Shown in pieces: positions 37,231 through 62,263 of a DNA stretch of 64,000 nt. The position numbers and the translations under genes were made by a program. The notes beneath the pieces are model-generated. The model made no database searches. It worked only from the letters and a program-made list of their open reading frames with translations, and had not been told where the DNA came from. This DNA comes from Methanosarcina barkeri 3 (lineage in GTDB: Archaea > Halobacteriota > Methanosarcinia > Methanosarcinales > Methanosarcinaceae): NCBI RefSeq assembly GCF_000970305.1, contig NZ_CP009517.1, positions 3,596,001 through 3,660,000 of the forward strand. Reading direction: 5' to 3'. Position 1 is the first letter of the stretch. Each line of letters starts with the position of its first letter.

Positions 37231-37336
37231 AGAGTTTAAGAAGTATAAAAGAATAAAAAACTCAAAAAATAAATGGCTTGAAATATTTGTTAGCTATCTA
37301 AAGGAACGGCATGGATCCATAGCTAAAAACAGGTAA

Positions 37337-40912: not shown

Positions 40913-41109
40913 TCCGTAATAACCCGCAAAGATAGAAACAAAAAACAAAACATAAACTGCGATAACTGAACTCTACCATTCCCCTGGTGGGGGGCTCACA
41001 ATAAGTGATAAGGCAACTTTCAGATTATGTGTATGTTATGACTTATTTGCATGTGAAACAATCTTAAAAAAACGTAAGACTCTTGTCTAAAACCAATAAG
41101 TGATTACAA

Positions 41110-42312: not shown

Positions 42313-42375
42313 CGCAAGTTTATACAGGAAAAAACCATCACTTAAAAGAGTGAGCTATGAATGCCAAGTATTACA

Positions 42376-42460
42376 TATAAAAACCTAAAGGATTATATAT
42401 AAAAATCTAAGGAATTATATCTAAAAATCTAAGAAATTATATCTAAAAACCTAAGGAATT
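42376..42460. repeat. About 22-nt tandem repeat, 4 copies
   Basis: Variants of AAAAATCTAAGGAATTATAT follow one another in the 42313-42702 spacer. No gene is seen in that spacer. Confidence 0.8.
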
Positions 42461-42702
42461 CGAAAAGTAATGAGTAGAAATATTTGGTAAAATATAGAAA
42501 AATGGCCTTCCGAAGTACAATAAAGTAGAACTAGATTGAGAGTTGTAAGTAATTTATGGAACAGTAAAAGAAGCACCATTGAATGAAGCATAGAGTTACT
42601 TCGTTATTATTCACTTTGAGTGTTAAAATTAACCTTCAGAACATATTACCTTTAGATTGACTCAGAAAAGTAAATTCATGTTATATTAAGGTGGCCTATT
42701 GT

Positions 42703-43893: not shown

Positions 43894-44002
43894 TTAATTC
43901 AGATCAGGAGAAAAAGAGGAGAAAATAGAAAAGGAATAGAAGAGGAATAGAAGAAGAATAAAAAGGACCGGAAAAAGGACAAAATTCAATTTTGAAATTT
44001 AT

Positions 44003-44851
44003 TTAAGAGCTTTTGGAAAAGAGATTATTAACAAATATCCTACGGCTAAATTCTATCAAGAAAAAAGGTATCATATATATCGATCTGATTCCGAAGTTCC
44101 TCAGTAAAAAGACAATATGATTTCTAGCATAATAATAGGTCTGTTTCAGGCGTCCGGATAGCCTGCAACCACCTGTACTGACTCTATTATGATCTGCTAC
44201 TGCAGCCGGTTGGAAATAAAATTTAAATCCCAGGTTAATGAGTCGCATGTTCAGATCACTTTCTTCACGGCAGTAAGTGCCCTTATAGGCTTTTTCCTCA
44301 TATCCACCTATGTTCCTTAACTGATCGACTGGATACAAACAACAGGCGTGTCCCATATCTACTTTTAAAACACTTCCAGGGTCTTGCCCATAGTTGTTGA
44401 AAATTTCGCCAGTGAATTTATTTACATAAAACGGGACATTACGCCTGACAGCTTCTTCATCCGGGTCTGTGTTTTCTATCAACCTCGGAACAATTACAAT
44501 ATCGTTCGTGGCAAAAGAATTGTAAGTACTGACAAGTTTTTCTAAACAGCCCTGATGCAACACCAGATCATCTTCAATGAAGAACACCAGTTGACCCTTA
44601 ACTTCGTGGAGAGCTGCATTCCTGTTGCGTGGGAGACCCAGATTGTGTTCATGAGTCTTACCATTTATTCTTGAATCGTGGACCATGTAATAATTTATGA
44701 CCTCTATAGTGTTGTCAGTTGAACAATCATCAGAAATCAAAAGTTCCCAATTGGTATATGACTGGTTTAAGACGGATTCAACACAGACCCCAAGAACCGA
44801 TGCTCTATTATATGTCGGTAAAATTATTGATACTAACGGTTTTTTACTCAT
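44003..44851 (-). CDS. Glycosyltransferase family 2
   Basis: A 282-residue GT-A enzyme: VSIILPTYNRASVLGVCVES, ISDDCSTDNT and the metal site VFFIEDDLVLH (EDD in place of DXD). REESDLNMRLI provides the ED base. A hydrophobic C-terminal stretch (residues 245-265) may anchor it to the membrane. It is on the opposite strand to the genes before it; a purine-rich spacer (43894-44002) separates the convergent ends. Confidence 0.88.
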   Translation of the reverse strand: MSKKPLVSIILPTYNRASVLGVCVESVLNQSYTNWELLISDDCSTDNTIEVINYYMVHDSRINGKTHEHNLGLPRNRNAALHEVKGQLVFFIEDDLVLHQGCLEKLVSTYNSFATNDIVIVPRLIENTDPDEEAVRRNVPFYVNKFTGEIFNNYGQDPGSVLKVDMGHACCLYPVDQLRNIGGYEEKAYKGTYCREESDLNMRLINLGFKFYFQPAAVADHNRVSTGGCRLSGRLKQTYYYARNHIVFLLRNFGIRSIYMIPFFLIEFSRRIFVNNLFSKSS

Positions 44852-44976
44852 AAACTATTCACCAATTTTAGACTATAGAGTCTGCCGGCGACCAGATATG
44901 GTTATTTCTGCTAGTTAAATTGGAAAAACCAACAACTTAGTAATTTTGATCAAAAGAAGACTTTGCAGGACTGCAG

Positions 44977-46032
44977 TCATAGCTCTTTATATATTTTTAA
45001 AGTTTTTTTTGCCGAAATGTCCCAGCTAAACATTTTTGACCTTTTCAGTCCTTTTCTGATCATTTCTTCTTTGAGTACCTCATTTGTTAATATTTCATAC
45101 ATTTCTTCAGCAAATTTTTCAACATTAAAAGGATCTGCCTGAACTGCAGCATCTCCGACAACTTCCGGCAGTGAGGAAGTATTTGATGTTATTACGGGGG
45201 TTCCGCAAGCCATTGCTTCTAGAGGAGGTATCCCGAACCCTTCATATAAAGAAGGAAATACGAACAGGTCCACAGCATTGTATATCTCTGCCAATTCGGT
45301 CTCTGAGACATACCCCGTAAAGATAACGTCATTCTGTAAATTCAGAGCCTTTATCTGTTCAAGGAGCTTTTTCCTTACGAACAGGTAATTTGGTGTCCCG
45401 GCCTTTAATAATTTTATATGTGGTATTTTATTTTTCAATTTGCTAAATGAATTTATTAGAAACTGAACATTTTTTCTAGGTTCTTCAGCTCCAACATATA
45501 AGATTACCTTTTCATCGTTTCCAATGCCATATTTTGATAAACACTTTTTACTACTATTGGGGAAGTATAAGCTGTGGTCTACGGCTGGGGTTATGATCTC
45601 TATATTTTCTTCGGGATATTTTATATACTTGCTAATGTCCTGTTTGGAGAACTCGGATACCGTAATTATTTTTTCTGCTTTTCTTAATCCTTTTGCGTTA
45701 AGTTTCCAGAGAGGACTTCGAGTCTTGTAATACGCTATAGGAATAATATCGTGGCAGGTAACAATAGTTTTTTCTAAGTCAGTTAGTTCAAGGAGAAATG
45801 CCAGATCCTGACGAGTTATATGTTTAATATTATTCTTATTTACTTTCTTCTTCACAATAAATGGATAAGCAAAATACTCAACAGCCTTGTTAACTCCGGC
45901 GACTTTTGACAAATTAGGATATTCTATCTTATTTAATTTGATATTGTTTAACCTGCTATGAATCTCACTTTGATACTTTGACATTGCGAATATTTCATCT
46001 GTTTTGAGACCATTTATATAGTCAATTACCAT
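44977..46032 (-). CDS. Glycosyltransferase family 4
   Basis: A 351-residue GT-B protein with [12 protein letters not shown]-like ILVTCHD segment ([13 protein letters not shown]), [21 protein letters not shown] and [21 protein letters not shown], the mannosyltransferase-type E-x7-E loop. The N-terminus lacks the usual Gly-Gly loop, as in related Wbp/MtfB-type enzymes. Expressed on the minus strand with its neighbours. Confidence 0.88.
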
Positions 46033-46128
46033 ACTTCAGTTCCCCAAAAACCCGGAATGATTTATAAACCTCATAATTTAGAGTAATTTATTATTTCTAC
46101 TATATAATTTGTTTTTTATCCGAGTAAC

Positions 46129-47223
46129 TTAATTTTTGTCCTTTATGTACTGCTTCTCAATTCTGGCTGAGACTTCATTCCAATCCATTATATTTTTGTC
46201 TATACCTGAGTTTTCTTTTTTTCCTTTTTTCTTAATTTTCATCAGTATTGGGGCAACTTTTTCTTTCGAAACCGGGTTCTCAATCCCAATACAGTTCCTT
46301 CCATCTACAAACTCCTCAAGTGCACTCCCTTTTGCCACTATACACGGAGTCCCCGCAGCCAACGCTTCCGCAACCGTTATACCATATGCTTCATGAGAAG
46401 AAAGCATCAAAAATATATCCGCATCTGCATAGCACTCAAGTAGTTCTTTTCTTGACAGATCTTTTAACCATTCAACCCTTTCTTCCACCCCTAAACTTTT
46501 CGCCATATTGCGAAGTTCAGCTTCGTAAGGCCCCTTTCCAATGATCCTCAACCTGAAACCCTGAAGTTCAGGCAAACTCTGGATAATATACTGTACCCCC
46601 TTATATTCCTCCAGGCGGCCCACATAGAGAAGAAGCTTTTCTCTTCCGTCATCCTTATTTGAGCTTTTTCCCGGCTGCCTCAAATCCTTGAACTCTTTAA
46701 GGTTTAGTCCGTTAGGGATTTTCACGGTTTTTGCGGCAACCTCAAAATCTGATTCTATAAGTTTCTTTTCATATTCTGAGACACATATTACGGAATCTGC
46801 CCTGGAGAAGATTATTTTCCCTAGAAACCTGTACGGCTTGTGCAGTAAGTCTCTGAATGCAGTATGGCCATGCCTGTGATAATGCGGTGTAAATACAAAT
46901 GTTGCATTGCGCCTGCCCAGAGATGCAAAGAATGCAGGAAAAGCGTGATAACTGTGCGCATGAATTATATCATAGTCGTGCTTTTTGAGATAAGTATAGA
47001 TCTGGGGAGCAAGGTAATACGCATTTCCAGGAGCAAAAGATCTGAACCTTATAACCTTTACTCCGTTCATTATCTCTTGCCTTTTCAATTTACCCGTAGG
47101 ATCGGTGGTTATAACCTCCACATCGTGCCCTGCTTTAACCAGCCTTTCACTAATTTCTTTGACATGAGTTTCCACTCCACCTATGTCGGGAGAATAACGG
47201 GGACATATCTGGGCTATTTTCAA
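46129..47223 (-). CDS. Glycosyltransferase family 4
   Basis: A 364-residue GT-B enzyme: MKIAQICPRYSPDIGGVETH at the N-terminus, HAHSYHAFPAFFASL, then LLYVGRLEEYKGVQYIIQ and LSSHEAYGITVAEALAAGTP with the E-x7-E motif. It closely resembles PimA/PimB-like mannosyltransferases. It is divergent from the GT4 gene at 47303, with a shared 79-nt promoter region. Confidence 0.9.
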   Translation of the reverse strand: MKIAQICPRYSPDIGGVETHVKEISERLVKAGHDVEVITTDPTGKLKRQEIMNGVKVIRFRSFAPGNAYYLAPQIYTYLKKHDYDIIHAHSYHAFPAFFASLGRRNATFVFTPHYHRHGHTAFRDLLHKPYRFLGKIIFSRADSVICVSEYEKKLIESDFEVAAKTVKIPNGLNLKEFKDLRQPGKSSNKDDGREKLLLYVGRLEEYKGVQYIIQSLPELQGFRLRIIGKGPYEAELRNMAKSLGVEERVEWLKDLSRKELLECYADADIFLMLSSHEAYGITVAEALAAGTPCIVAKGSALEEFVDGRNCIGIENPVSKEKVAPILMKIKKKGKKENSGIDKNIMDWNEVSARIEKQYIKDKN

Positions 47224-47302: not shown

Positions 47303-48457
47303 ATGACATCTAATAAAAGCGTTTGCATAGTCGGACCTTCGAAACGTTTTTTGAGCGGTATCAGTTATTATACTATCCGTCTGGCAAATGCTATGCCTAT
47401 GGAAAAGGAAGTATCAGTAGTTTGCTTTCGGCAGTTGCTTCCAACTTTTCTTTTTCCTGGAAGATCCCATGTCGGAAAAAATATTTCCGACTTGAATTTT
47501 TCACCCAGGATTCCTGTCTTTGACGGCATGGACTATAACAATCCACTGACCTGGATTCAAGCATACCGCTTTCTTAAAGCACAAAAACCTGATATTATAG
47601 TTTTGCAATGGTGGACTTCCTCGGTTGCGCATATGCAGCTTCTGCTAAAGATATTTGCAGGTTTACTGAATAAACCAAAATTAATTATAGAGTTTCATGA
47701 AGTCGTAGATCCTTTTGAAGAGTCAATACTTCCTATCCGTTTATACTCAAAAATAACAGGAAAATTACTGCGTAAAAACCTTGATGCATATATTACTCAC
47801 TCCGAGTCCGATAAAGAGCTTGTTGCAAAAAGATACTCTATTTCCCCTGAAAAAATTCATGTGATCCCACATGGACTTTACGACCAGTACGGAAAATTGC
47901 TTGATATAAAAGAAGCGAGAAGAGATCTCTCGATAAAGGACGATTTCGTTATACTTTCTTTCGGCTTAATTCGAAAATATAAGGGAACTCCCTACCTTAT
48001 CAGAGCCTTTGAACAGCTACCCTCCAAAATTCTCGAAAAAAGCAGGTTATTGATTGTCGGGGAAATCTGGGAAGACCGCAAGGAATTATTTGACCAGATT
48101 AAAGCTTCTCCTTATCATGATAAGATTACACTGGTAGATGAATATGTTCCTGATGAAAAAGTAAATCTGTATTTCAGCGCTGCAGATGTGGTAGTCCTGC
48201 CTTATCTGAGAGCTTCTCAGAGTGGAATCGCTCACATTGCCATGTCTTTTGGAAAACCTGTTGTTGTTTCCGAAGTAGGTGGCTTAAAAGAATCAATGGC
48301 TAACTATGAAGGCACTTTTTTTGTACCCCCGGCTGACGTCGATTCTATCAGGGAGGCTATTCTCAGCCAGTTTGGAGAGAGAAATCATTATGAAGCTCCT
48401 GATCAGAAATGGGATAGAATTATAAACTGTTATACAGAATTAATACAATCCATTTAA
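47303..48457 (+). CDS. Glycosyltransferase family 4
   Basis: A 384-residue GT-B enzyme with FLSGISYYTIRLANAM, an HPEVV-like EFHEVVDPFEESI segment, VILSFGLIRKYKGTPYLIRAF and LPYLRASQSGIAHIAMSFGKP. It lies directly before the first aglB gene (57-nt gap), so it may act in the lipid-linked glycan used by AglB. Confidence 0.88.
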   Translation: MTSNKSVCIVGPSKRFLSGISYYTIRLANAMPMEKEVSVVCFRQLLPTFLFPGRSHVGKNISDLNFSPRIPVFDGMDYNNPLTWIQAYRFLKAQKPDIIVLQWWTSSVAHMQLLLKIFAGLLNKPKLIIEFHEVVDPFEESILPIRLYSKITGKLLRKNLDAYITHSESDKELVAKRYSISPEKIHVIPHGLYDQYGKLLDIKEARRDLSIKDDFVILSFGLIRKYKGTPYLIRAFEQLPSKILEKSRLLIVGEIWEDRKELFDQIKASPYHDKITLVDEYVPDEKVNLYFSAADVVVLPYLRASQSGIAHIAMSFGKPVVVSEVGGLKESMANYEGTFFVPPADVDSIREAILSQFGERNHYEAPDQKWDRIINCYTELIQSI

Positions 48458-48514: not shown

Positions 48515-51040
48515 ATGAGTTCTCAGGATCGTTCTGTATCGTCATTCAAAGATAAAATCAGATCCAGTTGGCCTTATACTCTGGCAGTTGCGATAATTGT
48601 TTTTATGTCTCTATGGATCAGAATACTTCCTTCGGATAATGTTCTTTTACCTGGCGGAATTGTGAAGTTCACAACCAATGATGCCTGGTACCATATGCGT
48701 ACCTTAAAGGTTCTACTTGAGAACTACCCCCACAGGATGTTTTTCAATCCCATGACCAACTATCCTAACGGGAGTTACATACATTTCGGCCCATTGTTCG
48801 ATCAAATAATGGCTATTACCTCCCTGTTTCTTGGAATGGGGCATCCAAGTTCTCATCTTGTTGATACTGTTGGAGCCTATTTCCCTGCAGTACTAGGGGC
48901 TCTGACTGTCATTCCGGTTTACTACATAGGAAAATATCTTGGAGGACATAAAACCGGAATTCTGGCTGCAATTTTAATTGCGTTTGCACCAGGGGAGTTT
49001 CTGTCCCGTTCAATGATTGGCTTCACAGACCATCATGTTGCAGAATCACTTTTCAGTACACTCTTCATGATGTTCTTCATGCTGGCTTTGATTTCGGCTA
49101 AGGAAAGAAAGCTGCGTTTTGAAGATGTGTTTAATAAAAAATTCAGTGTCCTGAAAGAGCCTTTTATATACTCGGTTCTGGCTGGTGCAATGTATTCAGC
49201 ATACCAGCTTTGCTGGCCAGGAGGATCGCTTTTCTTATTCATCGTTCTTGTTTACGCAATGTTCCAGTACATTCTGGACAATTTCCGGAATGAGTCAAGC
49301 GACTACCTTGGGTTTACAGGCGTAGTCACCTGCCTGGCAAGTACAATACTTATCCTTCCTTTTGTCCATCCGGATATGGGCTTTTCTCTTTATTATTACT
49401 CATGGTTCCATGTTGTCACTGCTATTGGGGCAATGGCAGGTTTTGCGGCTTTGAGTCTTATTGAAAGGGAATTCAAAAGAAAGAAAATGAGAGCTTATTA
49501 CTACCCTCTCCTTATCCTCGGAGCAGGAATTCTCGGACTTATAATTATCAAAATCGCATCTCCACCCCTTTATTCTCTGATTATACATGCGCCGAGCACT
49601 GTTTTTGAAATTCAAAAGGGAGGACCTTCCACAATAGAAGAAGCTTCTTCTATGTTCTACCGTGGTGGCGTCTTTACCCTATCTAAAGCTTTTTCAAATT
49701 TCACTACTATGGGATTTCTTGCTTCTTTGCTCGGCATGTTAGTTCTGGCTGCAAACCTGTTCAGAAGACCAAAACCTCAAGAACTGCTGGTTCTTGTTTG
49801 GAGTTTCTTAATTCTCCTTGCAATTTACGGCCAGATTCGTTTTGCATATTACTATTCAATAAACGTTTCAATCCTGAGTGCATATCTGGGAGGACTGTTA
49901 CTTGAAACAGTAAAATGGAGTGAACTTGACCAGAAGTTCAAAAGTAGTGTAAAATCGCCAGCAGATATCCCGAAGGCATTGAAACTTGTCAAAATAGAGC
50001 AGGTTTTTGCAGTCCTGCTTATAGTGGTGTTTCTGATTTATCCAGTATACGGATCTGCAATACCGGATACAAAAATGGTATATGGCCAGCCCATCCAGCC
50101 CTGGGAAGAAGCTTGTACCTGGCTTAGCTCAAACACCCCTGACCCTGGTATGAACTACAATGCAGTTTACGAAGCTCCGAAAGACGGAGAAATGTTCCAG
50201 TATCCAGATACGGCATACGGTGTTATGTCATGGTGGGACTACGGGCACTATATAGAAACAATAGGCCACAGGATGCCAAATGCAAACCCCTTCCAGGCCG
50301 GAGTAGGAGGACGCAGAGTAAGCATTAACGAGACAAACCAACCAGGTGCTACAACCTTTCTCACAGCTCCATCTGAAGAAGAAGCAAGTGCAGTGCTTGA
50401 AGCCATAGACCCTAGGCCCGAAAAAGCAGGTGCACGTTATATAATGTCCGATGCCAGAATGGCTACAGATATATTCATTTCAATTGCTACCTGGACTCTT
50501 GATACTAATGGTTACTATCAGGCTTACTGGATAGGTAAAGAATATAGGTCACTGCCTGCTACTCGATATTTCAATTCCATGGAGGCAAGGCTGCATACTC
50601 TTGACGGAAATGGCTTGAAACAGTACCGTATGATTCACGAGACTGAAGCTTACCAAACAAGTGAGTTATTGTACAAACAGGTCTACAATCGCTTCCATGG
50701 AGGTAAACTCCCTGAGGTATATACAGGTTATGTCAAGGTCTTCGAGTATGTTAAAGGCGCAAATATAACAGGAACGGCTTCTCCCAATGAGAGTGTTAAA
50801 ATAAACACGACAATCCTTACAAATCAGGGAAGAACCTTTGAGTACTCGCAGTCAACTACTGCAGACTCTCAGGGAAGGTACGAATTTACAGTGCCTTATT
50901 CAACAGAAGGTCCGATTGCAGGCCAAACACAATTTGATACTGCACCTTCAGGACCCTATGTGTTGAGTTATGGAGATACGACAAAAGAAGTAAAAGTAAG
51001 TGAAGAAGCCGTATTGAAAGGAGAAGAGATAAAGGTCTGA
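48515..51040 (+). CDS. AglB oligosaccharyltransferase, copy 1
   Basis: STT3-type protein N-glycosyltransferase, 841 residues. About 13 membrane helices (residues 20-520) carry TTNDAWYHMR (Asp56) and GFTDHHVAESLF (Asp172, Glu177), the metal and glycan-binding acids. TIEE (373-376) is the TIxE external-loop motif; WWDYG is at 573-577. A soluble domain and a C-terminal beta domain (GANITGTASPNESVKI) follow. The loop after TIEE reads MFYRGGVFTLSK, and the linker before WWDYG is the short QPIQPWEEAC form. AAAGGGG precedes ATG. Confidence 0.96.
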   Translation: MSSQDRSVSSFKDKIRSSWPYTLAVAIIVFMSLWIRILPSDNVLLPGGIVKFTTNDAWYHMRTLKVLLENYPHRMFFNPMTNYPNGSYIHFGPLFDQIMAITSLFLGMGHPSSHLVDTVGAYFPAVLGALTVIPVYYIGKYLGGHKTGILAAILIAFAPGEFLSRSMIGFTDHHVAESLFSTLFMMFFMLALISAKERKLRFEDVFNKKFSVLKEPFIYSVLAGAMYSAYQLCWPGGSLFLFIVLVYAMFQYILDNFRNESSDYLGFTGVVTCLASTILILPFVHPDMGFSLYYYSWFHVVTAIGAMAGFAALSLIEREFKRKKMRAYYYPLLILGAGILGLIIIKIASPPLYSLIIHAPSTVFEIQKGGPSTIEEASSMFYRGGVFTLSKAFSNFTTMGFLASLLGMLVLAANLFRRPKPQELLVLVWSFLILLAIYGQIRFAYYYSINVSILSAYLGGLLLETVKWSELDQKFKSSVKSPADIPKALKLVKIEQVFAVLLIVVFLIYPVYGSAIPDTKMVYGQPIQPWEEACTWLSSNTPDPGMNYNAVYEAPKDGEMFQYPDTAYGVMSWWDYGHYIETIGHRMPNANPFQAGVGGRRVSINETNQPGATTFLTAPSEEEASAVLEAIDPRPEKAGARYIMSDARMATDIFISIATWTLDTNGYYQAYWIGKEYRSLPATRYFNSMEARLHTLDGNGLKQYRMIHETEAYQTSELLYKQVYNRFHGGKLPEVYTGYVKVFEYVKGANITGTASPNESVKINTTILTNQGRTFEYSQSTTADSQGRYEFTVPYSTEGPIAGQTQFDTAPSGPYVLSYGDTTKEVKVSEEAVLKGEEIKV

Positions 51041-51538
51041 ACAACTTAGATGTGAAATTAAGTTAGTTTCATACCTTTCTCTTTTTCTTCTTTTTTATCT
51101 TTATTTTCGTTTTATCCCCCTAGAAAGGCTTATCTTTGAGATTTTGAAGTAGCCCTCTACTTTTCCAGAATGTTTGTTTTTTTATATATTTCCAGGTTAC
51201 ATATAATTTTATATACTATTGATAAAGTTATTTTATATGTCAAAGAGTTTTCTTAAAATGGAACTAGAACATTGCCACGTCTTTTAGAAAACATACTGTT
51301 GGTCGAAAATCTTAAAGAACTGAGAGCCAGGGAAGAAAAGTAAAACCGAGAACACTGGATCTCTTGAAGAATGTCCTGACCGATTCAGTATGAAAGATGC
51401 ATGAGGTTCCTGAAGATAAATAAGGTAGAATTATAAATAATTAGACTAAGTTGGCTGCATAGGATAATAACATCTTATTTGATTTTCTTCGTTCATGAAT
51501 TATATTTATTTGAAAAAATCACCTTCGAAGGGATTATT
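51041..51538 (+). other. Spacer between aglB copies 1 and 2, with relic coding frame
   Basis: Homologous to the two later spacers. Around 51274-51342 one frame reads LPRLLENILLVENLKELRA then REEK and a stop, with good coding character but no start codon. In the next spacers the same segment is frameshifted. A T-rich terminator-like tract follows the gene. TATA-like sequences near 51200-51235 are shared among spacers. Confidence 0.45.
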
Positions 51539-54085
51539 ATGAGTTCTCAGGATCATCCTGTATTATCATTCAAAGATAAAATTAAGTCCAGCTGGCCTTA
51601 TACTCTGACAGTTGCGATAATCGGTTTTGTGTCTCTATGGATTAGAACAGGTCCTTCAGATACGGTATTCTTATCCGATGGGTCCGTAAGGTTTATGACC
51701 AATGACGCCTGGTACCATATGCGTACTTTAAGGGCTCTGCTTGAAAACTACCCCCACAGGATATTCTTCGACCCAATGACCAATTATCCTAATGGGAGTT
51801 ACATACATTTCGGCCCATTGTTCGATCAAATAATGGCTATTATCTCCCTGATTCTTGGAATGGGACATCCAAGTTCTCATCTTGTTGACACTGTTGGAGC
51901 CTATTTCCCTGCAGTGCTTGGAGCTCTGACTGTCATTCCGGTTTACTACATAGGAAAATATATTGGAGGACATAAGACAGGGATTCTGGCTGCAATTCTG
52001 ATTGCGTTTGCTCCGGGACAATTTCTGACCCGTTCAATGATTGGTTTTACAGACCATCATGTTGCAGAATCATTGTTCAGTACACTTTTCATGATGTTCT
52101 TCATGCTGGCTTTGATTTCGGCTAAGGAAAGAAAGCTGCGTTTTGAAGATGTGTTTAATAAAAAGTTCAGTGTCCTGAAAGGGCCTTTTATATACTCGGT
52201 TCTGGCTGGTGTAATGTATTCAGCATACCAGCTTTGCTGGCCAGGAGGATCGCTTTTCTTATTCATCGTTCTTGTTTACGCAATATTCCAGTACATTCTG
52301 GACAATTTCCGGAATGAATCAAGCGACTATCTTGGATTTACAGGCATAGTCACTTGTTTAGTAAGCACAATACTTATCCTTCCGTTTGTCCATCCTGACA
52401 TGGGCTTTTCTCTTTATTATTACTCATGGTTCCATGTTGTCACTGCTATTGGGGCAATGGCAGGTTTTGCGGCTTTGAGTCTTATTGAAAGGGAATTCAA
52501 AAGAAAGAAAATGAGAGCTTATTACTACCCTCTCCTTATCCTCGGAGCAGGAATTCTCGGACTTATAATTACCAAAATCGCATCTCCATCTCTTTATTCT
52601 CTAATAATAAACGCACCAAATACCGTTTTCGGAATCCAGCAGGGAGGACCTTCCACAATCCTGGAAGCTTCTTCTATATTTTATGAAAGTAACAAATATA
52701 GAGTCTTTACCTTATCGAAAGTCTTTCTACATTTCACCCCTATAGGATTCCTTGCTTCTGTAATAGGAATATTAATTCTGGCTGCAGGTCTATTCAGAAA
52801 ACCAAAACCTCAAGAAGTGCTACTTCTTATCTGGAGTCTCTTAATTCTTTTTGCAATTTACGGCCAGAATCGTTTTGCATATTACTATTCAATAAACGTT
52901 TCAATCCTGAGTGCTTACCTTGGAGGTCTGCTGCTTGACACAGTTAAATGGAAAGAAATTGACCAGAAATTCAAGAGTAGTGTAAAATCGCCCGAAGATG
53001 TCCCGAAAGCCTTTAAACTCATCAAAGTACAGCAGATCTTTATAATCCTGGCAATAGTATTATTTTTGATTTATCCAGTGTATGGATCTGCAATGCTATA
53101 TTCAAATACGATAAAGTCAACTGGCTCAAACGAACCCAATCAACCGTGGATGGAAGCTTGTGACTGGCTACGTTCAAATACTCCAGACCCTGGTATGAAC
53201 TACAATGCCGTTTACGAAGCTCCGAACAGCGGAGAAATGTTCCAGTATCCAGATACGGCATATGGTGTTATGTCATGGTGGGACTACGGGCACTATATAG
53301 AGATAATTGGTCACAGGATGCCAAATGCAAACCCCTTCCAGGCCGGAGTAGGAGGACGCAGAGTAAGCATTAACGAGACAAACCAGCCAGGAGCTGCAAC
53401 CTTTCTCACAGCCCCATCTGAAGAAGAAGCAAGTGCAGTGCTTGAAGCCATAGATCCAAGGCCTGACAAAGCAGGTGCACGCTATATAATGTCTGATGCT
53501 AAAATGGCTACAAGTATATTCGGATCAATTACTACCTGGACTCTTGATACTGAAGGGTACTACCAGGCATACCGGACAGGTAGCCAATATCAGAGCATAC
53601 CTACTGCTCGATATTTTAATACCATGGAAGCAAAACTGCACATTTTTGACGGAAATGGCTTGAAGCAATACCGTATGGTTCACGAGACTAAGGCTTACCA
53701 AACTGACGAGTTGGGGTACAAACAGGTCTACAATTATTTCTACGGAGGTAAACTCCCTGAGGTATATACAGGTTATGTCAAGGTCTTCGAGTACGTTAAA
53801 GGCGCAAATATAACAGGAACGGCTTCTCCCAATGAAAGTGTTAAAATAAACACAACAATCCTTACAAATCAGGGAAGAACCTTTGACTATTCACAGTCAA
53901 CAACTGCAGATTCCCAGGGAAGATACGAACTCACAGTGCCTTATTCAACAGAAGGTCCGATTGCGAATCAAACTCAATTCGATACTGCACCTTCAGGACC
54001 CTATGTATTGAGTTATGGAGATACGACAAAAGAAGTGAGAGTAAGTGAAGAAGCCGTATTAAAAGGAGAAGAGATAAAGGTCTGA
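51539..54085 (+). CDS. AglB oligosaccharyltransferase, copy 2
   Basis: An 848-residue paralogue with MTNDAWYHMR, GFTDHHVAESLF, TILE (from residue 373) and WWDYG at 580-584. The post-TIxE segment is longer (IFYESNKYRVFTLSK), and the linker before the soluble domain carries an insert (SNTIKSTGSNEPNQPW) shared exactly with copy 4. ATG 51539 is the homologous start; the frame extends upstream to 51479 but those residues are not shared. It shares a 172-nt identical tract with copy 1. Confidence 0.96.
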   Translation: MSSQDHPVLSFKDKIKSSWPYTLTVAIIGFVSLWIRTGPSDTVFLSDGSVRFMTNDAWYHMRTLRALLENYPHRIFFDPMTNYPNGSYIHFGPLFDQIMAIISLILGMGHPSSHLVDTVGAYFPAVLGALTVIPVYYIGKYIGGHKTGILAAILIAFAPGQFLTRSMIGFTDHHVAESLFSTLFMMFFMLALISAKERKLRFEDVFNKKFSVLKGPFIYSVLAGVMYSAYQLCWPGGSLFLFIVLVYAIFQYILDNFRNESSDYLGFTGIVTCLVSTILILPFVHPDMGFSLYYYSWFHVVTAIGAMAGFAALSLIEREFKRKKMRAYYYPLLILGAGILGLIITKIASPSLYSLIINAPNTVFGIQQGGPSTILEASSIFYESNKYRVFTLSKVFLHFTPIGFLASVIGILILAAGLFRKPKPQEVLLLIWSLLILFAIYGQNRFAYYYSINVSILSAYLGGLLLDTVKWKEIDQKFKSSVKSPEDVPKAFKLIKVQQIFIILAIVLFLIYPVYGSAMLYSNTIKSTGSNEPNQPWMEACDWLRSNTPDPGMNYNAVYEAPNSGEMFQYPDTAYGVMSWWDYGHYIEIIGHRMPNANPFQAGVGGRRVSINETNQPGAATFLTAPSEEEASAVLEAIDPRPDKAGARYIMSDAKMATSIFGSITTWTLDTEGYYQAYRTGSQYQSIPTARYFNTMEAKLHIFDGNGLKQYRMVHETKAYQTDELGYKQVYNYFYGGKLPEVYTGYVKVFEYVKGANITGTASPNESVKINTTILTNQGRTFDYSQSTTADSQGRYELTVPYSTEGPIANQTQFDTAPSGPYVLSYGDTTKEVRVSEEAVLKGEEIKV

Positions 54086-54612
54086 ACAACTTGAGATGTG
54101 CAATTAAATTAATTTCACACCTTTATTTCTTTTTCCTTCTTTTCTGATCTTTATTTTCATCTTATTTTCCTGAAAGGCTTATTTTTGAAATTTTTGAAGT
54201 CGCCTCCTACCTTTCCAGAATGCTTCTTTTTTATAAATTCACAGGCTACATATACTTATATATACTGTTAATAAAGTTATTTTATATGTCAAAAGCTTCT
54301 AAAAGTGGAACCAGAACATTGCCGCTTCTTTAAAAGACATTACTGTTTCGAAGTAGAAAGTCTTAGAGAACCTGAGCGCCAGGGAAGAAAAACAAAACCG
54401 GGAATACTAACTCTCTTGAAGAACTTACAGATTGAGCCAGTATGAAAAATTCAGAAGGTTCCTAAAAATAAATAATGGAATCTTGAATATAAATAAAATA
54501 GAATTGCAAATAATAAGGCTTATTCGTCTGCGTAGGAAAATGTTATCTATTTGACTTTTTTCTTTCACAAATTACAGATTTAATTACAAAAATTACCTCC
54601 GAAGGGATTATT
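54086..54612 (+). other. Spacer between aglB copies 2 and 3
   Basis: Homologous to 51041-51538. It keeps the GAACATTGCC and TACTGTTTCGAAG landmarks and a broken form of the relic frame. No gene is supported. Confidence 0.5.
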
Positions 54613-57135
54613 ATGAGTTCTCAGGATCATCCTGTATCGTCATTCAAAGATAAAATCAAATCCAGCTGGCCTTATACTCTGACAGTTGCGATAATCGGTT
54701 TAATGTCTCTATGGATAAGAACATATCCTTCAGATACGGTGTTCTTATCCGATGGGTCTGTAAGATATACGGCTAATGATGCCTGGTTTCATATGCGTAC
54801 CTTAAGGGTTCTGCTTGAAAACTACCCCCACAGAATGTTTTTCGATCCCATGACCAACTATCCTAACGGGAGTTATATCCATTTCGGCCCACTATTTGAT
54901 CAAATGATGGCAATTACTTCCCTGATCCTAGGTATGGGTCATCCCATTTCTCATCTTGTTGATACTGTTGGAGCTTACTTTCCTGCAGTGCTCGGAGCTC
55001 TGACTGTCATTCCGGTTTACTACATAGGAAAATATATTGGTGGGCATAAGACAGGGATTCTGGCTGCAATTGTAATCGCATTTGCTCCAGGACATTTTCT
55101 ATTACACTCAATGATTGGCTCTACAGACCATCATATTGCAGAATCGTTGTTCAGCACTTTCTTCATGATGTTTTTCATGCTTGCCTTGATTTCGGCAAAG
55201 GAGAAAAAGCTGCGTTTTGAAGATGTGTTTAATAAAAACTTAAAAGTCTTGAAAGAGCCTTTTATATACTCGGTTCTGGCTGGCGTAATGTATTCAGCAT
55301 ACCAGCTCTGCTGGCCAGGAGGCTCGCTTTTCTTATTGATCGTTCTTGTTTACGCCGTATTCCAGTGTATCTTAGACAATTTCCAGAATGAGTCAAGTGA
55401 CTACCTTGGGTTTACAGGCATAATCACATGTTTGGTAAGTACAATACTCATCCTCCCGTTTGTCCATCCTGACATGGGATTTTCACTTTATTATTACTCC
55501 TGGTTCCATGTTATTACTGCTATTGGGGCAATGGCAGGCTTTGCGGCTTTGAGTCTTATTCAAAGAGAATCAAAAAGAAAGAAAATGAAAACTTATTATT
55601 ACCCACTTATAATCCTTGGAGCTGGTATTCTTGGGTTTATATTTATTAAAGTTTTATCTCCATCACTTTATTCTCTAATTATAAACGCACCAAGCACTAT
55701 TTTTGGAATTCAACAGGGGGGACCCTCTACAATTGGTGAAGCTTCTTCTATGTTTCGCATAGGTGATAAAATCGTCCTGTCGGAAGCTTATAAATATTTT
55801 ACTCCTACAGGATTTCTTGCTTCTTTACTGGGGATAGTTATTCTGGCTGCAAATCTATTCAGAAAACCAAAACCTCAGGAAGTGTTACTTCTTATCTGGT
55901 GTCTTTTAATTCTTTTTGCAATTTACGGACAGAACCGCTTTGCATACTACTATTCTATAAATATATCAATCCTGAGTGCCTATCTTGGAGGTCTGCTGCT
56001 CGATAAAGTGAAATGGAACGAACTTGACCAGAAGTTCAAAAATACCGTAAAATTGCCCGAAGATATTCCGAAGGCTTTTAAATTCATCAAAGTACAGCAG
56101 ATATTTGCAGTCCTGGCCATAGTATTATTTTTGATCTATCCTGTATACGGATCTGCAATTTTATATACAAAAATTTCGAACGGTACACCTGATCAGTGGG
56201 TGGAAGCCTGTGACTGGCTCCGTTCAAACACCCCAGACCCTGGTATGAACTACAATGCCGTTTATGAAGCCCCGAAAAACGGAGAGATGTTCCAGTATCC
56301 TGATACGGCTTACGGTGTCATGTCATGGTGGGACTACGGGCACTACATAGAGACAATAGGGCACAGGATGCCAAATGCTAATCCGTTCCAGGCAGGAATA
56401 GGAGGCCGAAGGGTAAGCATCAACGAGACAAACCAGCCAGGTGCAGCAACCTTTTTCACAGCCCCATCTGAAGAAGAAGCAAGTGCAGTTCTTGAAGCCA
56501 TAGACCCGAGGCCTGACAAAGCAGGTGCACGCTATATAATGTCTGATGCCAGAATGGCTACAGTTATGTTCTCGGCAATACCTAAATGGACTCTTGATAC
56601 TGAAGGGTACGAGCAGGCTTACTGGATAGGTAACCAATATCAGAGCATACCTACTGCCCGATATTTCAATACCATGAAAGCAAAACTTCACATTTTTGAC
56701 GGAAATGGCTTGAAACATTACCGTATGGTCTACGAGACTGAAGCCTACCAGAGTAACGAAGTCGCATATAAACAGGTTTACAACTACTTCTACGGAGGCA
56801 AGCTCCCTGAGGTAGATACAGGTTCTGTCAAGATATTCGAGTACGTCAAAGGTGCGAATATAACAGGAACGGCTTCTCCTAACGAAACTGTTAAAATAAG
56901 TACTACAATCCTTACAGATAAGGGACGGACCTTTGAATACACTCAATCAACAACTACAGACTCTCAGGGAAGATACGAATTTACAGTGCCTTATTCAACA
57001 GAAGGTCCGATTGCAGGCCAAACACAATTTGATACTGCACCTTCAGGACCCTATGTATTAAGTTACGGCGATACCACAAAAGAAATAAAAGTAAGTGAAG
57101 AAACTGTATTAAAAGGAGAAGAAATAAAGGTATGA
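54613..57135 (+). CDS. AglB oligosaccharyltransferase, copy 3
   Basis: An 840-residue paralogue and the most diverged of the four. Motifs are TANDAWFHMR (Tyr replaced by Phe), GSTDHHIAESLF (Phe to Ser), TIGE and WWDYG at 572-576. The post-TIxE segment is MFRIGDKIVLSEAYKYFT, and the linker is ILYTKISNGTPDQW. These changes sit in the parts that face acceptor peptide and lipid-linked glycan in known structures, so specificity may differ. It starts at ATG 54613 after GAAGGG. Confidence 0.96.
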   Translation: MSSQDHPVSSFKDKIKSSWPYTLTVAIIGLMSLWIRTYPSDTVFLSDGSVRYTANDAWFHMRTLRVLLENYPHRMFFDPMTNYPNGSYIHFGPLFDQMMAITSLILGMGHPISHLVDTVGAYFPAVLGALTVIPVYYIGKYIGGHKTGILAAIVIAFAPGHFLLHSMIGSTDHHIAESLFSTFFMMFFMLALISAKEKKLRFEDVFNKNLKVLKEPFIYSVLAGVMYSAYQLCWPGGSLFLLIVLVYAVFQCILDNFQNESSDYLGFTGIITCLVSTILILPFVHPDMGFSLYYYSWFHVITAIGAMAGFAALSLIQRESKRKKMKTYYYPLIILGAGILGFIFIKVLSPSLYSLIINAPSTIFGIQQGGPSTIGEASSMFRIGDKIVLSEAYKYFTPTGFLASLLGIVILAANLFRKPKPQEVLLLIWCLLILFAIYGQNRFAYYYSINISILSAYLGGLLLDKVKWNELDQKFKNTVKLPEDIPKAFKFIKVQQIFAVLAIVLFLIYPVYGSAILYTKISNGTPDQWVEACDWLRSNTPDPGMNYNAVYEAPKNGEMFQYPDTAYGVMSWWDYGHYIETIGHRMPNANPFQAGIGGRRVSINETNQPGAATFFTAPSEEEASAVLEAIDPRPDKAGARYIMSDARMATVMFSAIPKWTLDTEGYEQAYWIGNQYQSIPTARYFNTMKAKLHIFDGNGLKHYRMVYETEAYQSNEVAYKQVYNYFYGGKLPEVDTGSVKIFEYVKGANITGTASPNETVKISTTILTDKGRTFEYTQSTTTDSQGRYEFTVPYSTEGPIAGQTQFDTAPSGPYVLSYGDTTKEIKVSEETVLKGEEIKV

Positions 57136-57924
57136 AACCAGTACGGAATGTGAGATTGTTCACACTACTGCACCTTTATTTCTCCTTTCTTCTTCTTTTT
57201 TAGTTTTGTTTTTACTCTTCCAGGAAATATTTCTTCTAAGGTTTTCTTAAGAGACTGCTATTTTTTCAAGAAAATTAGTAACTACCCAACCTATGTAAAA
57301 CAGGATCAATAGCCATATTTATTAAAACTCAATCGACGAATTTCTGTAAATTGATTCTTAATCTGTTACCAATTGATTCCGTTTCTTCCTTTTTCACAGG
57401 TTATTTCTTGGATTCCTTGTTTTCGATATAATCAATATCGATAGACACGTTGGGTATGCTGAATAGTTACAAAAATTATTTATATATATCCGTCAGTTAC
57501 ATATACTTTTATTTATATCCGACACTTACATATACTTTTATTTATATATCCGTCAGTTGTATACTCTTATATACTGTTAACAAAGTAGTTTCACATCTCG
57601 AAGGGATTTTCAAGGTTGAACCAGAAGCATTGCCACGTCTTTTAGCAGAACTATTACTGTTTCCGAAGTAAATAGCTTGAGAAACCTGCCACCATGAAAA
57701 ATAAGCAAAAACCCCCTCAGGCAATAGTAGGTATCTTGTAAATTGTCCAGATCGATCTAATATGAAAACTGCATGAAGTTTCTGAACAGAAATAAGGTAG
57801 GATTATAAATAATCGTACTGAGTAGCCTGCGTAGAATAATATTATCTAATATTATTTATTTGATATTATTATTCCATAAACTATATATTTGATTGAAAAA
57901 ACTTACCTCTTAAAGGGGATTATT
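57136..57924 (+). other. Spacer between aglB copies 3 and 4
   Basis: About 790 nt, longer than the other two. It adds a three-copy repeat (57477-57570) and a further 200 nt before the shared landmarks. The relic frame is present as ALPRLLAELLLFPK then stop near 57626. No intact gene is supported. Confidence 0.5.
57477..57570. repeat. About 30-nt tandem repeat, 3 copies
   Basis: Units of ATTTATATATCC, GTCAGTTACATATACTTTT with small variations. The unit resembles the TTACATATA sequences before the other aglB copies, so it may be an expanded promoter element. Confidence 0.75.
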
Positions 57925-60462
57925 ATGAGTTCTCAGGATCATCCTGTATCATCATTCAAAGATAAAATCAAGTCCAGCTGGCCTTATACTCTGGCAGTTG
58001 CGATAATCGGTTTTATATCTCTATGGGTTAGAACACTTCCTTCAAATACGGTGTTCTTATCCGATGGATCCGTAAGGTTCGCGACCAATGATGCCTGGTA
58101 CCATATGCGTACCTTATTTGTCTTGCTCGAAAATTACCCCAATAGGATGTTTTTCAATCCCATGACCAACTATCCTAACGGGAGTTACATACATTTCGGC
58201 CCATTGTTCGATCAAATGATGGCTATTACCTCCCTGATTCTTGGAATGGGACATCCAAGTTCTCATCTTGTTGATACTGTTGGAGCCTATTTCCCTGCAG
58301 TGCTAGGGGCCATTATCGTCATTCCGGTTTACTACATAGGAAAATACCTGGGAGGACATAAAACCGGAGTTCTGGCTGCAATTTTAATTGCGTTTGCTCC
58401 GGGACAGTTTCTAACCCGTTCAATGATTGGTTTTACAGACCATCATGTTGCAGAATCACTGTTCAGTACACTTTTCATGATGTTCTTCATGCTGGCTTTG
58501 ATTTCGGCTAAGGAAAGAAAGCTGCGTTTTGAAGATGTATTTAATAAAAAGTTCAGTGTTTTGAAAGAGCCTTTTATATACTCGGTTCTGGCTGGTGTAA
58601 TGTATTCAGCATACCAGCTGTGCTGGCCAGGAGGATCGCTTTTCTTATTCATCGTTCTTGTTTACGCAATATTCCAGTACATTCTGGACAATTTCCGGAA
58701 TGAATCAAGCGACTACCTTGGATTTACAGGTGTAGTAACCTGTCTGGTAAGTACAATACTTATCCTTCCATTTGTCCATCCGGATATGGGCTTTTCTATG
58801 TATTATTACTCATGGTTCCACGTTATCACTGCTATTGGGGCAATGGCAGTTTTTGCGGCTTTGAGTCTCATAGAAAGGGAATTCAAAATAAGGAAAATAA
58901 ATACTTATTATTACCCTCTGCTGATTCTTGGAGCAGGAATTCTCGGACTTATAATTACCAAAATCGCATCTCCATCCCTTTATTCCCTAATTATAAATGC
59001 TCCAAGCACTGTTTTTGGAATTCAACAGGGAGGACCTTCCACAATTGGTGAAGCTACTTCTATATTCTACCAGAACGGCGCCTTTACCCTGTATAAAGCT
59101 TTTTCAAATTTCACTACTACGGGATTTCTAGCTTCTATACTCGGGATGTTTGTTCTGGCTGCAAACCTGTTCAAAAGACCAAAGCCCCACGAATTGCTTG
59201 TTCTTGTCTGGAGCTTCTTTATTCTCCTTGCAATTTATGGCCAGAATCGTTTTGCATATTACTATTCAATAAACGTTTCAATCCTGAGTGCCTACCTTGG
59301 AGGCCTGTTACTTGAAAAAGTAAAATGGAACGACCTTGACCAGAAGTTCAAAAGTAATGTAAAGTCACCTTCAGATGTCCCAGGTGCATTGAAACTTGTC
59401 AAAATCGAGCAGGTTTTTGCAGTCCTGTTTATATTGATATTTCTGATTTATCCCGTATATGGATCTGCAATGCTATATTCAAATACGATAAAGTCAACTG
59501 GCTCAAACGAACCCAATCAACCGTGGATGGAAGCTTGTGTCTGGCTCCGTTCAAATACTCCTGATCCGGGAATGAACTACAATGCCGTTTACGAAGCTCC
59601 GAAAAACGGAGAAATGTTCCAGTATCCAGATACGGCATACGGTGTTATGTCATGGTGGGACTACGGGCACTATATAGAGACAATAGGCCACAGAATGCCA
59701 AATGCAAATCCCTTCCAGGCAGGGGTAGGAGGACGCAGAGTAAGCATTAACGAGACAAACCAACCAGGCGCAGCAACCTTTTTCACAGCCCCATCTGAGA
59801 AAGAAGCAAGTGCAGTGCTCAAAGCTATAGATCCAAGGCCTGACAAAATGGGTGCACGTTATGTAATGTCTGATGCCAAAATGGCTACAAGTATATTCGG
59901 GGCAATGCCTGCCTGGACTCTTGATACTGATGGGTACTATCAGGCTTACTGGACAGGTAGCCAATATCAAAACATACCTTCTACCCGATATTTCAATTCC
60001 ATGGAATCAAGACTGCAGATTTTTGACGGAAACGGCTTGAAGCAGTATCGTATGGTTTACGAAACTGAGGCCTATCAAACTGACGAAGTAGGGTATAAAC
60101 AGGTCTATAATTACTTATACGGAGGCAAACTCCCTGAGGTAGATACCGGCTATGTCAAGATCTTCGAGTACGTTAAAGGTGCAAATATAACAGGAACGGC
60201 TTCTCCCAATGAGAGTGTTAAAATAAACACGACAATCCTTACAAATCAGGGAAGGACCTTTGAGTACTCGCAGTCAACTACTGCAGATTCTCAAGGAAGG
60301 TATGAATTCACAGTGCCTTATTCAACAGAAGGTCCGATTGCAAATCAGACTCAATTCAACACTGCACCCTCAGGGCCCTATGTGTTGAGTTATGGCGATA
60401 TGACAAAAGAAGTGAAAGTAAGTGAAGAAGCCGTATTGAAAGGAGAAGAAATAAAGGTATGA
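57925..60462 (+). CDS. AglB oligosaccharyltransferase, copy 4
   Basis: An 845-residue paralogue. Motifs are ATNDAWYHMR, GFTDHHVAESLF, TIGE and WWDYG at 577-581. The post-TIxE segment IFYQNGAFTLYKAFSNFTT resembles copy 1, while the linker insert is identical to copy 2 over 82 nt. This mosaic fits gene conversion. One EAE-to-KEAS change occurs in the soluble domain (APSEKEAS). ATG 57925 is the homologous start, preceded by AAAGGGG. Confidence 0.96.
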   Translation: MSSQDHPVSSFKDKIKSSWPYTLAVAIIGFISLWVRTLPSNTVFLSDGSVRFATNDAWYHMRTLFVLLENYPNRMFFNPMTNYPNGSYIHFGPLFDQMMAITSLILGMGHPSSHLVDTVGAYFPAVLGAIIVIPVYYIGKYLGGHKTGVLAAILIAFAPGQFLTRSMIGFTDHHVAESLFSTLFMMFFMLALISAKERKLRFEDVFNKKFSVLKEPFIYSVLAGVMYSAYQLCWPGGSLFLFIVLVYAIFQYILDNFRNESSDYLGFTGVVTCLVSTILILPFVHPDMGFSMYYYSWFHVITAIGAMAVFAALSLIEREFKIRKINTYYYPLLILGAGILGLIITKIASPSLYSLIINAPSTVFGIQQGGPSTIGEATSIFYQNGAFTLYKAFSNFTTTGFLASILGMFVLAANLFKRPKPHELLVLVWSFFILLAIYGQNRFAYYYSINVSILSAYLGGLLLEKVKWNDLDQKFKSNVKSPSDVPGALKLVKIEQVFAVLFILIFLIYPVYGSAMLYSNTIKSTGSNEPNQPWMEACVWLRSNTPDPGMNYNAVYEAPKNGEMFQYPDTAYGVMSWWDYGHYIETIGHRMPNANPFQAGVGGRRVSINETNQPGAATFFTAPSEKEASAVLKAIDPRPDKMGARYVMSDAKMATSIFGAMPAWTLDTDGYYQAYWTGSQYQNIPSTRYFNSMESRLQIFDGNGLKQYRMVYETEAYQTDEVGYKQVYNYLYGGKLPEVDTGYVKIFEYVKGANITGTASPNESVKINTTILTNQGRTFEYSQSTTADSQGRYEFTVPYSTEGPIANQTQFNTAPSGPYVLSYGDMTKEVKVSEEAVLKGEEIKV

Positions 60463-60635: not shown

Positions 60636-61136
60636 ATGATGAAAAACCCTATTATAGGTCGAGTCTGGAAATTCGGAGACGATGTCGACACAGATGTAAT
60701 CATTCCCGGAAAATACCTGCGGACCAAAGATATGCAGGTTTTTGCAGCTCATGCAATGGAAGGCATTGACCCCGAATTTGCAAAAAAAGTGAAACCGGGA
60801 GATATCATTGTAGCAGGCAGCAATTTCGGCTGCGGCTCTTCAAGAGAACAGGCTCCCCTTGCTTTAAAACATGCAGGTATAGCATGTATTGTCGCAAGAT
60901 CTTTTGCAAGGATCTTTTTCAGAAATGCAATTAATGTAGGGCTACCTCTTATTGAAGCCGATATCGAGTGTCAGGAGGGCGACGAAATAAAGGTTGACCT
61001 GCTAAAAGGCGAAGTTACAGTTTCAGGAAAAACCACTTACGAAGGAAATAAACTACCGGATTTTCTTCTCCAAATACTTGCTGACGGCGGGCTTGTAGCT
61101 CACAGAAAGAAAATCCAGATCGAGCAAAGGGAATAA
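60636..61136 (+). CDS. Homoaconitase/isopropylmalate isomerase small subunit (HacB type)
   Basis: A 166-residue swivelling domain of aconitase-family enzymes ([34 protein letters not shown]). The specificity loop reads YLRT (residues 27-30). In methanogens YLRT marks the homoaconitase small subunit of coenzyme B synthesis, whereas isopropylmalate isomerase has YLVY-like loops; this is known from work on the MJ1271 protein. Start could be ATG 60636 or 60639; AGGTGA favours the second. The large subunit is not in the window. Confidence 0.85.
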
Positions 61137-61195
61137 TTTGATACAATAATTATGGAAAAAAACCGGAAAATAAATCATAAAGTACTGGGAGTATA

Positions 61196-62263
61196 TTGAG
61201 AAATGTATCAAAAAACATACCAAAGTACACTGGAAAACATACCGGAAACAAATTTAATTTGACAACAACCAAAATAAGAAGAATAAGAAAAACAAGAAGA
61301 ATAAGAAAAACAAGAAGAATAAGAAAAATAAGAAGAATAAGAAAAACAAGAAGAATGAACTCAGAATCCATATTTCAAAAAAATCATCCAAAACAACCGA
61401 TAATTATGCTTTTTCCTGATGAATATAAGCATGTAGGTGTAACAAAATCCTTCTGCCCGGACACTGAGGAACCTATCTATTTCCTGACTGACTACCTGAT
61501 TACAGAAAAGGGAAGTCCTCAGACAGACGGCTGCGAATACGCAGTCTATTACGTGAGAAAAAACGGAGAGGGCTTGCTCAGAAAAGTTGAGTCTCTCGAA
61601 ACAATAGCCTCAGGAGAAGAGGTGGTAAAATATGACAGAGAGTTGAATATAAAAGACCGTACACTCCTGATCGAGACTGCAGAAAAACTCTGTACCGGCA
61701 AAGTGAACACGGTAATTTTTACAGGTATGGATAAACACGTCACATTTGTTCACGCCCCAGATCTTGCAAGCATTCTTGACTTAGAAATCCTTGACGTTGC
61801 TCCCCCTTATCCCTCCTGGCTTTCCCTTGTTGTAAGAAGACTCGAAGCCAGTGGAATTTTCGGGGATCTCCAGGTCAGGTTTACTGAAAAAGTAATCGAT
61901 TTAAGACGTTTTGAAGGAAAAAACACCGTTTTTCCATGCAGCGCGTCTGGACTGGAAGGTAAATGCCTGGACTCGGATGTGCTCACGGAAAACGGACATT
62001 TACTTGTAGGATGTGAAATTTCAAAGACTCTTTTTGAAATGCGTTTTCCTGAACTTGAGTATTCCTTTATAAACATCTGTCCTTTCAAGTCCGAAATAGT
62101 TGTACCCTCAAAATCCTTTATTACTCGCTGCTGCAGGTCTGAGAATTCAGGGCTTGTAAATATTTCGGGTTTTGATGGAGCTGTAGTCCACTGGGGAGCA
62201 TCGGAGTACCAGGTTGCTGAAGCTATCCGAAAACTTGTAAACAGACTGAGAAAGAATGAGTAA
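61196..62263 (+). CDS. Hypothetical protein, conserved core with repeat-encoded N-terminus
   Basis: The open frame from TTG 61196 (GGGAG 4 nt upstream) encodes 355 residues. Residues 27-53 are an RRIRKT repeat from an 18-nt DNA array; the folded part begins near MLFPDEYKHVG (ATG 61406) and continues to the end with regular alpha/beta pattern and several Cys (PFCSASG-like FPCSASG, RCCRSENSG). I do not recognise the family. True start may be 61355 or 61406, but neither has a good ribosome site. Confidence 0.7.
   Translation: MRNVSKNIPKYTGKHTGNKFNLTTTKIRRIRKTRRIRKTRRIRKIRRIRKTRRMNSESIFQKNHPKQPIIMLFPDEYKHVGVTKSFCPDTEEPIYFLTDYLITEKGSPQTDGCEYAVYYVRKNGEGLLRKVESLETIASGEEVVKYDRELNIKDRTLLIETAEKLCTGKVNTVIFTGMDKHVTFVHAPDLASILDLEILDVAPPYPSWLSLVVRRLEASGIFGDLQVRFTEKVIDLRRFEGKNTVFPCSASGLEGKCLDSDVLTENGHLLVGCEISKTLFEMRFPELEYSFINICPFKSEIVVPSKSFITRCCRSENSGLVNISGFDGAVVHWGASEYQVAEAIRKLVNRLRKNE
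61276..61356. repeat. 18-nt tandem repeat, about 4.5 copies, in coding frame
   Basis: Copies of AAGAAGAATAAGAAAAAC, one with AAT at the end. Being 18 nt, length changes preserve the frame and only change the number of RRIRKT units. Confidence 0.9.

Follow-up and report, generated by a model that had tools for sequence, protein, structure and literature searches.

The window analysed here, a stretch of 64,000 nucleotides from Methanosarcina barkeri 3, carries a head-to-tail array of four intact aglB open reading frames on the forward strand, extending from 48515 to 60462. Copy 1 (48515-51040; 841 residues) is identified by ORF call, profile matches and an AlphaFold2 model, copy 2 (51539-54085; 848 residues from its ATG) by ORF call and profile matches, and copies 3 (54613-57135; 840 residues) and 4 (57925-60462; 845 residues from its ATG) by ORF call and catalytic residues. 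The TTG starts listed for copies 2 and 4, at 51479 and 57889, extend the frame upstream of the MSSQ start. Pairwise amino acid identity among the four copies ranges from 81.7 to 87.3%. An earlier note on this DNA described four tandem, full-length copies that keep the acidic loop residues, TIxE and WWDYG, none with a frameshift, and closer analysis bears this description out. Every copy exceeds the cut-off of the STT3 model PF02516, with no internal stop in the match. The catalytic and metal-binding set D56, D172, H174 and TIxE Glu376 (copy 1 numbering), corresponding to D47, D161, H163 and TIXE Glu360 of the Archaeoglobus fulgidus enzyme AfAglB, is found in all four copies, as is WWDYG. The two motifs fall at 49631-49642 (TIEE) and 50231-50245 in copy 1, 52655-52666 (TILE) and 53276-53290 in copy 2, 55729-55740 (TIGE) and 56326-56340 in copy 3, and 59041-59052 (TIGE) and 59653-59667 in copy 4.

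Further profile results agree with this assignment. Copy 1 also matches the AglB core and AglB_L1 profiles, and copy 2 scores 863.6 bits against TIGR04154, the model for archaeosortase A-associated oligosaccharyltransferase, which has a cut-off of 450. The AlphaFold2 model of copy 1 (pLDDT 86, pTM 0.85) has the GT-C fold, with 13 transmembrane helices and a C-terminal globular domain. In a fold search its top PDB match, and the closest solved structure, is the A. fulgidus AglB-L structure 7e9s (TM 0.85, about 30% identity), a ternary complex of AfAglB with bound peptide and dolichol phosphate. The four copies are thus predicted to be single-subunit archaeal oligosaccharyltransferases (OSTs), AglB of the AfAglB-L type, which would move lipid-linked oligosaccharide onto Asn-X-Ser/Thr sites in the surface proteins of this methanogen. 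The array is real and unusually large; the enzyme itself is already known.

The earlier note also placed seven glycosyltransferases and fucose synthesis genes beside the array, and these are indeed present. A GT4 glycosyltransferase, recognized by profile match and synteny (47303-48457, forward strand), ends 57 bp before copy 1, and six further glycosyltransferases of GT2 and GT1/GT4 type, recognized by profile matches, lie on both strands from 40046 to 47223. Genes for GDP-mannose 4,6-dehydratase (GMD) and GDP-L-fucose synthase (35208-37230, forward strand) score above the cut-offs of the NCBIfam equivalog models TIGR01472 and NF047922, and mannose-1-phosphate guanylyltransferase/mannose-6-phosphate isomerase (ManC; 31561-32937, forward strand) above that of TIGR01479. 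The downstream border, conserved in relatives, is formed by genes for a LeuD/HacB-type small subunit and a DUF7714 protein (60636-62263, forward strand). Among the glycosyltransferases, only the GT4 gene is regularly kept beside the array; it is the most regular upstream neighbor of aglB in related genomes, even if missing upstream of some single-copy aglB loci, and the remaining glycosyltransferase content differs between species. Among the sugar genes (33369-39478) are those for a flippase-like protein and an ABC exporter of Wzm/Wzt type; with such an exporter, the cluster may produce a polysaccharide for export besides, or instead of, an N-glycan. Farther away, a 420-residue ORF at 21603-22865 shows a weak match, below the Pfam cut-off, to an NRPS condensation domain.

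The spacers that precede copies 2, 3 and 4 measure 498, 527 and 789 bp and are rich in T close to the stop codon of the copy before. Each holds, on the forward strand, a promoter-like element followed by a leader: TTTATATACTATTGATAAAG at 51208-51227 with the conserved leader of copy 2 (together 51208-51541), the element at 54257-54276 with the leader of copy 3 (54257-54612), and the element at 57566-57585 with the leader of copy 4, a region that opens with tandem TATA-containing repeats (57479-57924 in all). The TATA-containing element TTTATATACTRTTRAYAAAG has four matches in the window, where 0.12 would be expected, and lies 332, 354 and 357 bp from copies 2, 3 and 4, respectively. In this clade, non-first copies are preceded at a distance of 332-373 bp by this element or by a version of it that keeps the TATA motif; no such promoter-like element was seen upstream of first copies in the window or in related genomes. 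The leader, about 330-370 nt long, can be aligned as far as genomes G005 and G029. From this arrangement, copies 2 to 4 are probably transcribed separately, and copy 1 together with the glycosyltransferase gene. The repeats ahead of copy 4, about 30 bp each (57479-57585), occur in M. spelaei as well. The leader was also considered as a structured RNA, an idea rejected on a consensus energy of -1.25 kcal/mol, little covariation and the absence of Rfam hits at E<=1. A scan for sigma-70-type promoters, which are not the archaeal promoter type, gave results near chance.

A survey of 86 Methanosarcinaceae genomes, 31 of them Methanosarcina, found STT3 matches in all 31 of the latter. The better Methanosarcina genomes have one lone distant copy plus an array of one to four copies; a lone distant aglB is found in most Methanosarcina genomes searched. 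Here the fifth, solo aglB lies about 150 kb from the array, outside the window (G000:C1:3805318-3806115; locus L113), shows 31-33% identity to the array copies, and has a pocket of the Lys type discussed below. Other genera of the family have two STT3 matches at most, and among the 86 genomes tandem arrays were seen in Methanosarcina alone. Where flanking sequence was captured, the aglB site is bounded by the GT4 gene and the leuD-DUF7714 pair. The window array is the largest in the survey; most relatives manage with one or two copies. The earlier note had suggested a search for the same four-gene array in other Methanosarcina; relatives proved to have one to three copies at the same site, although M. 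spelaei probably carries a similar array, with the assembly broken there. One M. spelaei contig has a complete orthologue of copy 3 (94.3%), together with the final part of one further copy and the start of a copy-4-like gene (96.7% at the nucleotide level), and another holds a copy-1-like gene (96.6%). The aglB sequence of this species is split over loci L141 and L142, on one of which a single aglB stands between GT4 and leuD. Collapse of a repeat probably explains that single-aglB contig, and numbers of copies taken from draft genomes should accordingly be read as minima. An apparent swap of an EL5 cassette in M. spelaei was set aside, as repeat copies may have been collapsed in its contig.

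Loci L116, L122, L132 and L138 hold truncated remnants of copies that have been lost. At L132 (5016-5317), all that is left of a first copy is about 130 bp of its 5' end fused to about 160 bp of its 3' end, upstream of the single remaining aglB. At L116 (7551-11217), some 1.1 kb containing a transposase-like ORF (7805-8797) breaks a copy-3 orthologue close to its 3' end, so copy 3 can be dispensable. A second transposase-like ORF, of 556 residues, lies between two aglB copies at L144 (8118-9788), upstream of the leader of the second. Together, the remnants and the transposase insertions at L116 and L144 show that copies are born and lost.

Differences among the four copies in the window are concentrated in a few segments. 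Of 848 aligned columns, 222 are variable. The variable share reaches 69% in the EL5 segment after TIxE, 55% in TM13 and the linker before the soluble domain, 38% in the kinked-helix/IS segment, 35% in EL1 around the first catalytic Asp and 32% in TM10-12, which adjoin EL5, and falls to just 10-16% in TM2-8, WWDYG and the C-terminal blocks. The earlier note, which located the main differences just after TIxE and in the linker, had picked the two most variable segments and omitted EL1 and the kinked-helix/IS segment. The sequon is recognized by EL5/TIXE, and alanine changes at AfAglB L356-F365 sharply reduce activity (PMC8342417); in PglB, R331 reads the -2 residue (PMC7226087). In our alignment to AfAglB, the hypervariable stretch starts at about residue 366. 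The emphasis of the earlier note on EL5 therefore needs adjusting: by analogy, the hypervariable part would cover the stretch about 12 residues past the catalytic Glu, the place of R331 in PglB, but it begins just beyond the essential L356-F365. By comparison with solved OSTs, EL1, EL5, TM13/linker and the kinked helix/IS would form the sites for acceptor peptide and lipid-linked glycan.

We took these four segments as patches and the remainder as backbone, with borders defined on the window copies and then applied to other genomes. Between copies 1 and 2, dS is low in TM2-8 (0.21) and around WWDYG (0.24), and rises to 1.32 in EL1 and 0.72 in TM13/linker. Of the 28 pairs of copies from the same genome, to which the window contributes six, 24 have a higher dS in the patches than in the backbone; in 14 of 16 between-genome pairs of same-position or single copies, patch dS is the lower. 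Trees built from the two parts differ. In the patch tree, first-position copies from eight genomes form one group (support 99.6/100) and the first copies of G005 and G029 are paired (100/100), whereas the backbone tree groups copies by genome, as for G008 (99.4/100), G004 (99.2/100), G029 (98.4/91) and others. AU tests on the patches reject genome-wise groups in several independent genomes (p from 4e-6 to 2.7e-3), and AU tests on the backbone reject both a first-position clade (p 5e-5) and an Ile-type clade (p 1.8e-4), although not the pairing of the G005 and G029 first copies. The conflict between trees and these rejections indicate that the scaffold is converted and that the patches keep copy identity across species: judged from the sequences, gene conversion homogenizes the TM, WWDYG and C-terminal blocks, and the four patches escape it. 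A literature search found no paper on aglB gene conversion. Scaffold conversion with protected substrate patches is one of the new features here. The patches could have stayed free of conversion through selection, or through a simple recombination barrier raised by existing divergence and indels. Whole-gene dN/dS is below 0.25 in pairs of copies with paralogues and with orthologues, and no segment shows dN/dS above 1 among pairs with reliable dS, so the pattern reads as constraint and not as demonstrable positive selection. EL1 has no indels and dN/dS of about 0.1-0.14, so it is constrained. The suggestion in the earlier note that the array is not a matter of simple dosage gains support from two sides, as copy-specific patches common to several species escape conversion and each non-first copy is preceded by a promoter-like element of its own.

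One residue within the kinked-helix patch, a position that the earlier note did not remark on, deserves separate treatment. In the kinked helix of AfAglB, the DK motif is marked by the signature residues Glu613 and Lys618, and Lys618 lines the pocket for Ser/Thr at +2 (PMC3703281). In a gapless alignment (SD-x-x-MA-x-x-[K/I]-F), the Lys618 position holds Ile653 in copy 1 (ATA at 50471), Ile in copy 2 (ATA at 53516), Met in copy 3 (ATG at 56566) and Ile in copy 4 (ATA at 59893), and the Glu613 position holds R, K, R and K, respectively. With both residues replaced, none of the four copies has the variant DK pocket E<>KXXX(M/I/P). Nor do they have the bacterial-type MI pocket MXXIXXX(I/V/W), since their spacing is MXXX(I/M), although its hydrophobic character is matched. 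All four do carry the relaxed DK motif of older sequence-based schemes, DXXMXXX(M/I) (PMC5131992), as DARMATDI, DAKMATSI, DARMATVM and DAKMATSI in copies 1 to 4. Under either the variant or the relaxed DK reading, the predicted pocket in these copies is without Lys. Array copies examined across genomes have Lys in 14 cases, Ile in 29, Met in six, and Val and Phe in one each, and the solo copies examined have Lys in six of six. Five sister genomes (G006, G008, G015, G020 and G022) combine Lys-type and Ile-type copies within one array. Most AglB proteins of sister genera read EMATGKF, with Lys, but the Methanolobus genomes G080 and G063 (L216 and L219), with a single STT3 match each, have an Ile-type AglB reading GRMAYTIF, which argues that the Ile form is functional. 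According to PMC3703281, OST paralogues within one organism always share a pocket type, and three M. mazei proteins are listed in its variant-DK alignment. The predicted switch from Lys to Ile or Met, with both pocket types in one organism, is new and goes against that one-type rule. In PglB, the pocket Ile (MXXI) touches the methyl group of Thr at +2, explaining lower efficiency with Ser (PMC7226087), and because of this contact a preference for Thr over Ser at +2 is predicted for the array copies. As an indirect test of the switch, sequons were counted in the major S-layer protein: NXT and NXS sites number 86 and 53 in genomes with an Ile-type array copy and 13 and 15 in Lys-only genomes, a difference short of significance (Fisher p=0.14, with species not independent).

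The best reading of these results, held with moderate confidence, is that the four copies are isoenzymes with different preferences for acceptors and perhaps for glycans. Each combines an intact catalytic apparatus and a homogenized scaffold with copy-specific patches, and these patches, predicted to face the substrates, would give the copies different preferences for acceptor sites and possibly for glycan donors. Copy 1 would be read with the preceding glycosyltransferase operon and copies 2 to 4 from their own promoters, and, compared with the solo paralogue and its Lys-type pocket, the hydrophobic Ile/Met pocket common to all four would favor Thr over Ser at +2. Counting against this reading are the absence of patch dN/dS above 1, the chance that divergence and indels alone keep conversion out of the patches, the start of the hypervariable EL5 stretch beyond the essential segment, the disrupted copy-3 orthologue, the nonsignificant sequon comparison and the small arrays of most relatives. 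The main rival, which we consider unlikely on balance, is a neutral birth-and-death array, in which unequal crossing-over multiplies interchangeable AglB proteins that matter through dosage or redundancy, and divergence and indels block conversion in the patches. A copy number that varies from one to four across the genus, the remnants at four loci, the transposase inside a copy-3 orthologue and patch dN/dS below 1 are all what such an array would leave behind. It accounts poorly, however, for patches that are copy-specific and yet common to several species, for an EL1 patch that is constrained and free of the indels supposed to block conversion, and for the rejection of genome-wise patch grouping in several independent genomes.

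That the copies are instead the same enzyme under different regulation, with equal specificity and expression under different conditions, appears improbable. The separate arrangements of copy 1, 57 bp behind a glycosyltransferase gene, and of copies 2 to 4, with their own element and leader, fit this idea, as do the repeats ahead of copy 4 and the detection of MM0647 alone from M. mazei in a concanavalin A proteomics set (PMC4350412), but regulation by itself fails to explain distinct protein patches beside a uniform rest of the gene. Least probable by far is a recombination reservoir, in which EL5 and linker segments are shuffled among copies to vary surface glycosylation. It would explain the mosaic pattern, including the common linker and different EL5 of copies 2 and 4 in the window, and the copy-2-like EL5 in a copy-1 relative from M. 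spelaei; that relative, however, lies on a single-aglB contig, with the other copies on a separate contig, and might therefore be chimeric through misassembly. The search also turned up no silent cassettes, and the patches are mostly stable by array position. Extending the isoenzyme reading to the genus is a tentative step, which we regard as quite possible and somewhat doubtful: aglB arrays in general may be sets of diversifying isoenzymes, with a converted scaffold and patches held apart by selection. With the Ser/Thr pocket changed from Lys to Ile/Met in most copies, one cell would then have two chemically different pockets for reading sequons, which might divide Asn-X-Thr from Asn-X-Ser sites, or sites by their -2 residue, among the enzymes.

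These arrays form a natural series, with one to four close copies at one chromosomal site and differences confined to named patches and one pocket residue. Methanosarcina genetics is workable, and series and genus together make the choice of sequon and glycan by an OST experimentally testable. Little is known of why archaea have multiple AglB enzymes (PMC3703281), and the mixed pocket types challenge the rule of one Ser/Thr-pocket type per organism.

Among the closest known systems is M. mazei, with the aglB set MM0646, MM0647 and MM2210 (Magidovich and Eichler 2009, cited by PMC4350412): two consecutively numbered genes plus one separate, the same two-plus-one layout as in searched genome G008. 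The window differs in having four tandem genes plus one solo gene, and an array without a Lys-type member, unlike the G008 array, where a Lys-type copy stands beside an Ile-type one. Archaeoglobus fulgidus likewise has several AglB paralogues per genome (AglB-L, S1 and S2; 3waj, 5gmy and 7e9s), but these are one long and two short proteins, all with the variant DK (Lys) pocket, rather than close tandem copies with Ile or Met at the K618 position. Campylobacter PglB, with its MI motif, shares a hydrophobic Ile lining the Ser/Thr pocket, but at the MXXI spacing instead of MXXX(I/M), and its identity to copy 1 in the fold search is merely 12-14%. The best functional analogue is Trypanosoma brucei, which also has several single-subunit OST paralogues in one organism; STT3A, STT3B and STT3C have distinct donor and acceptor specificities (as cited in PMC3703281 and PMC5131992). 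There, in a eukaryote, the specificities were measured; for the array in the window, comparable specificities are suggested by sequence.
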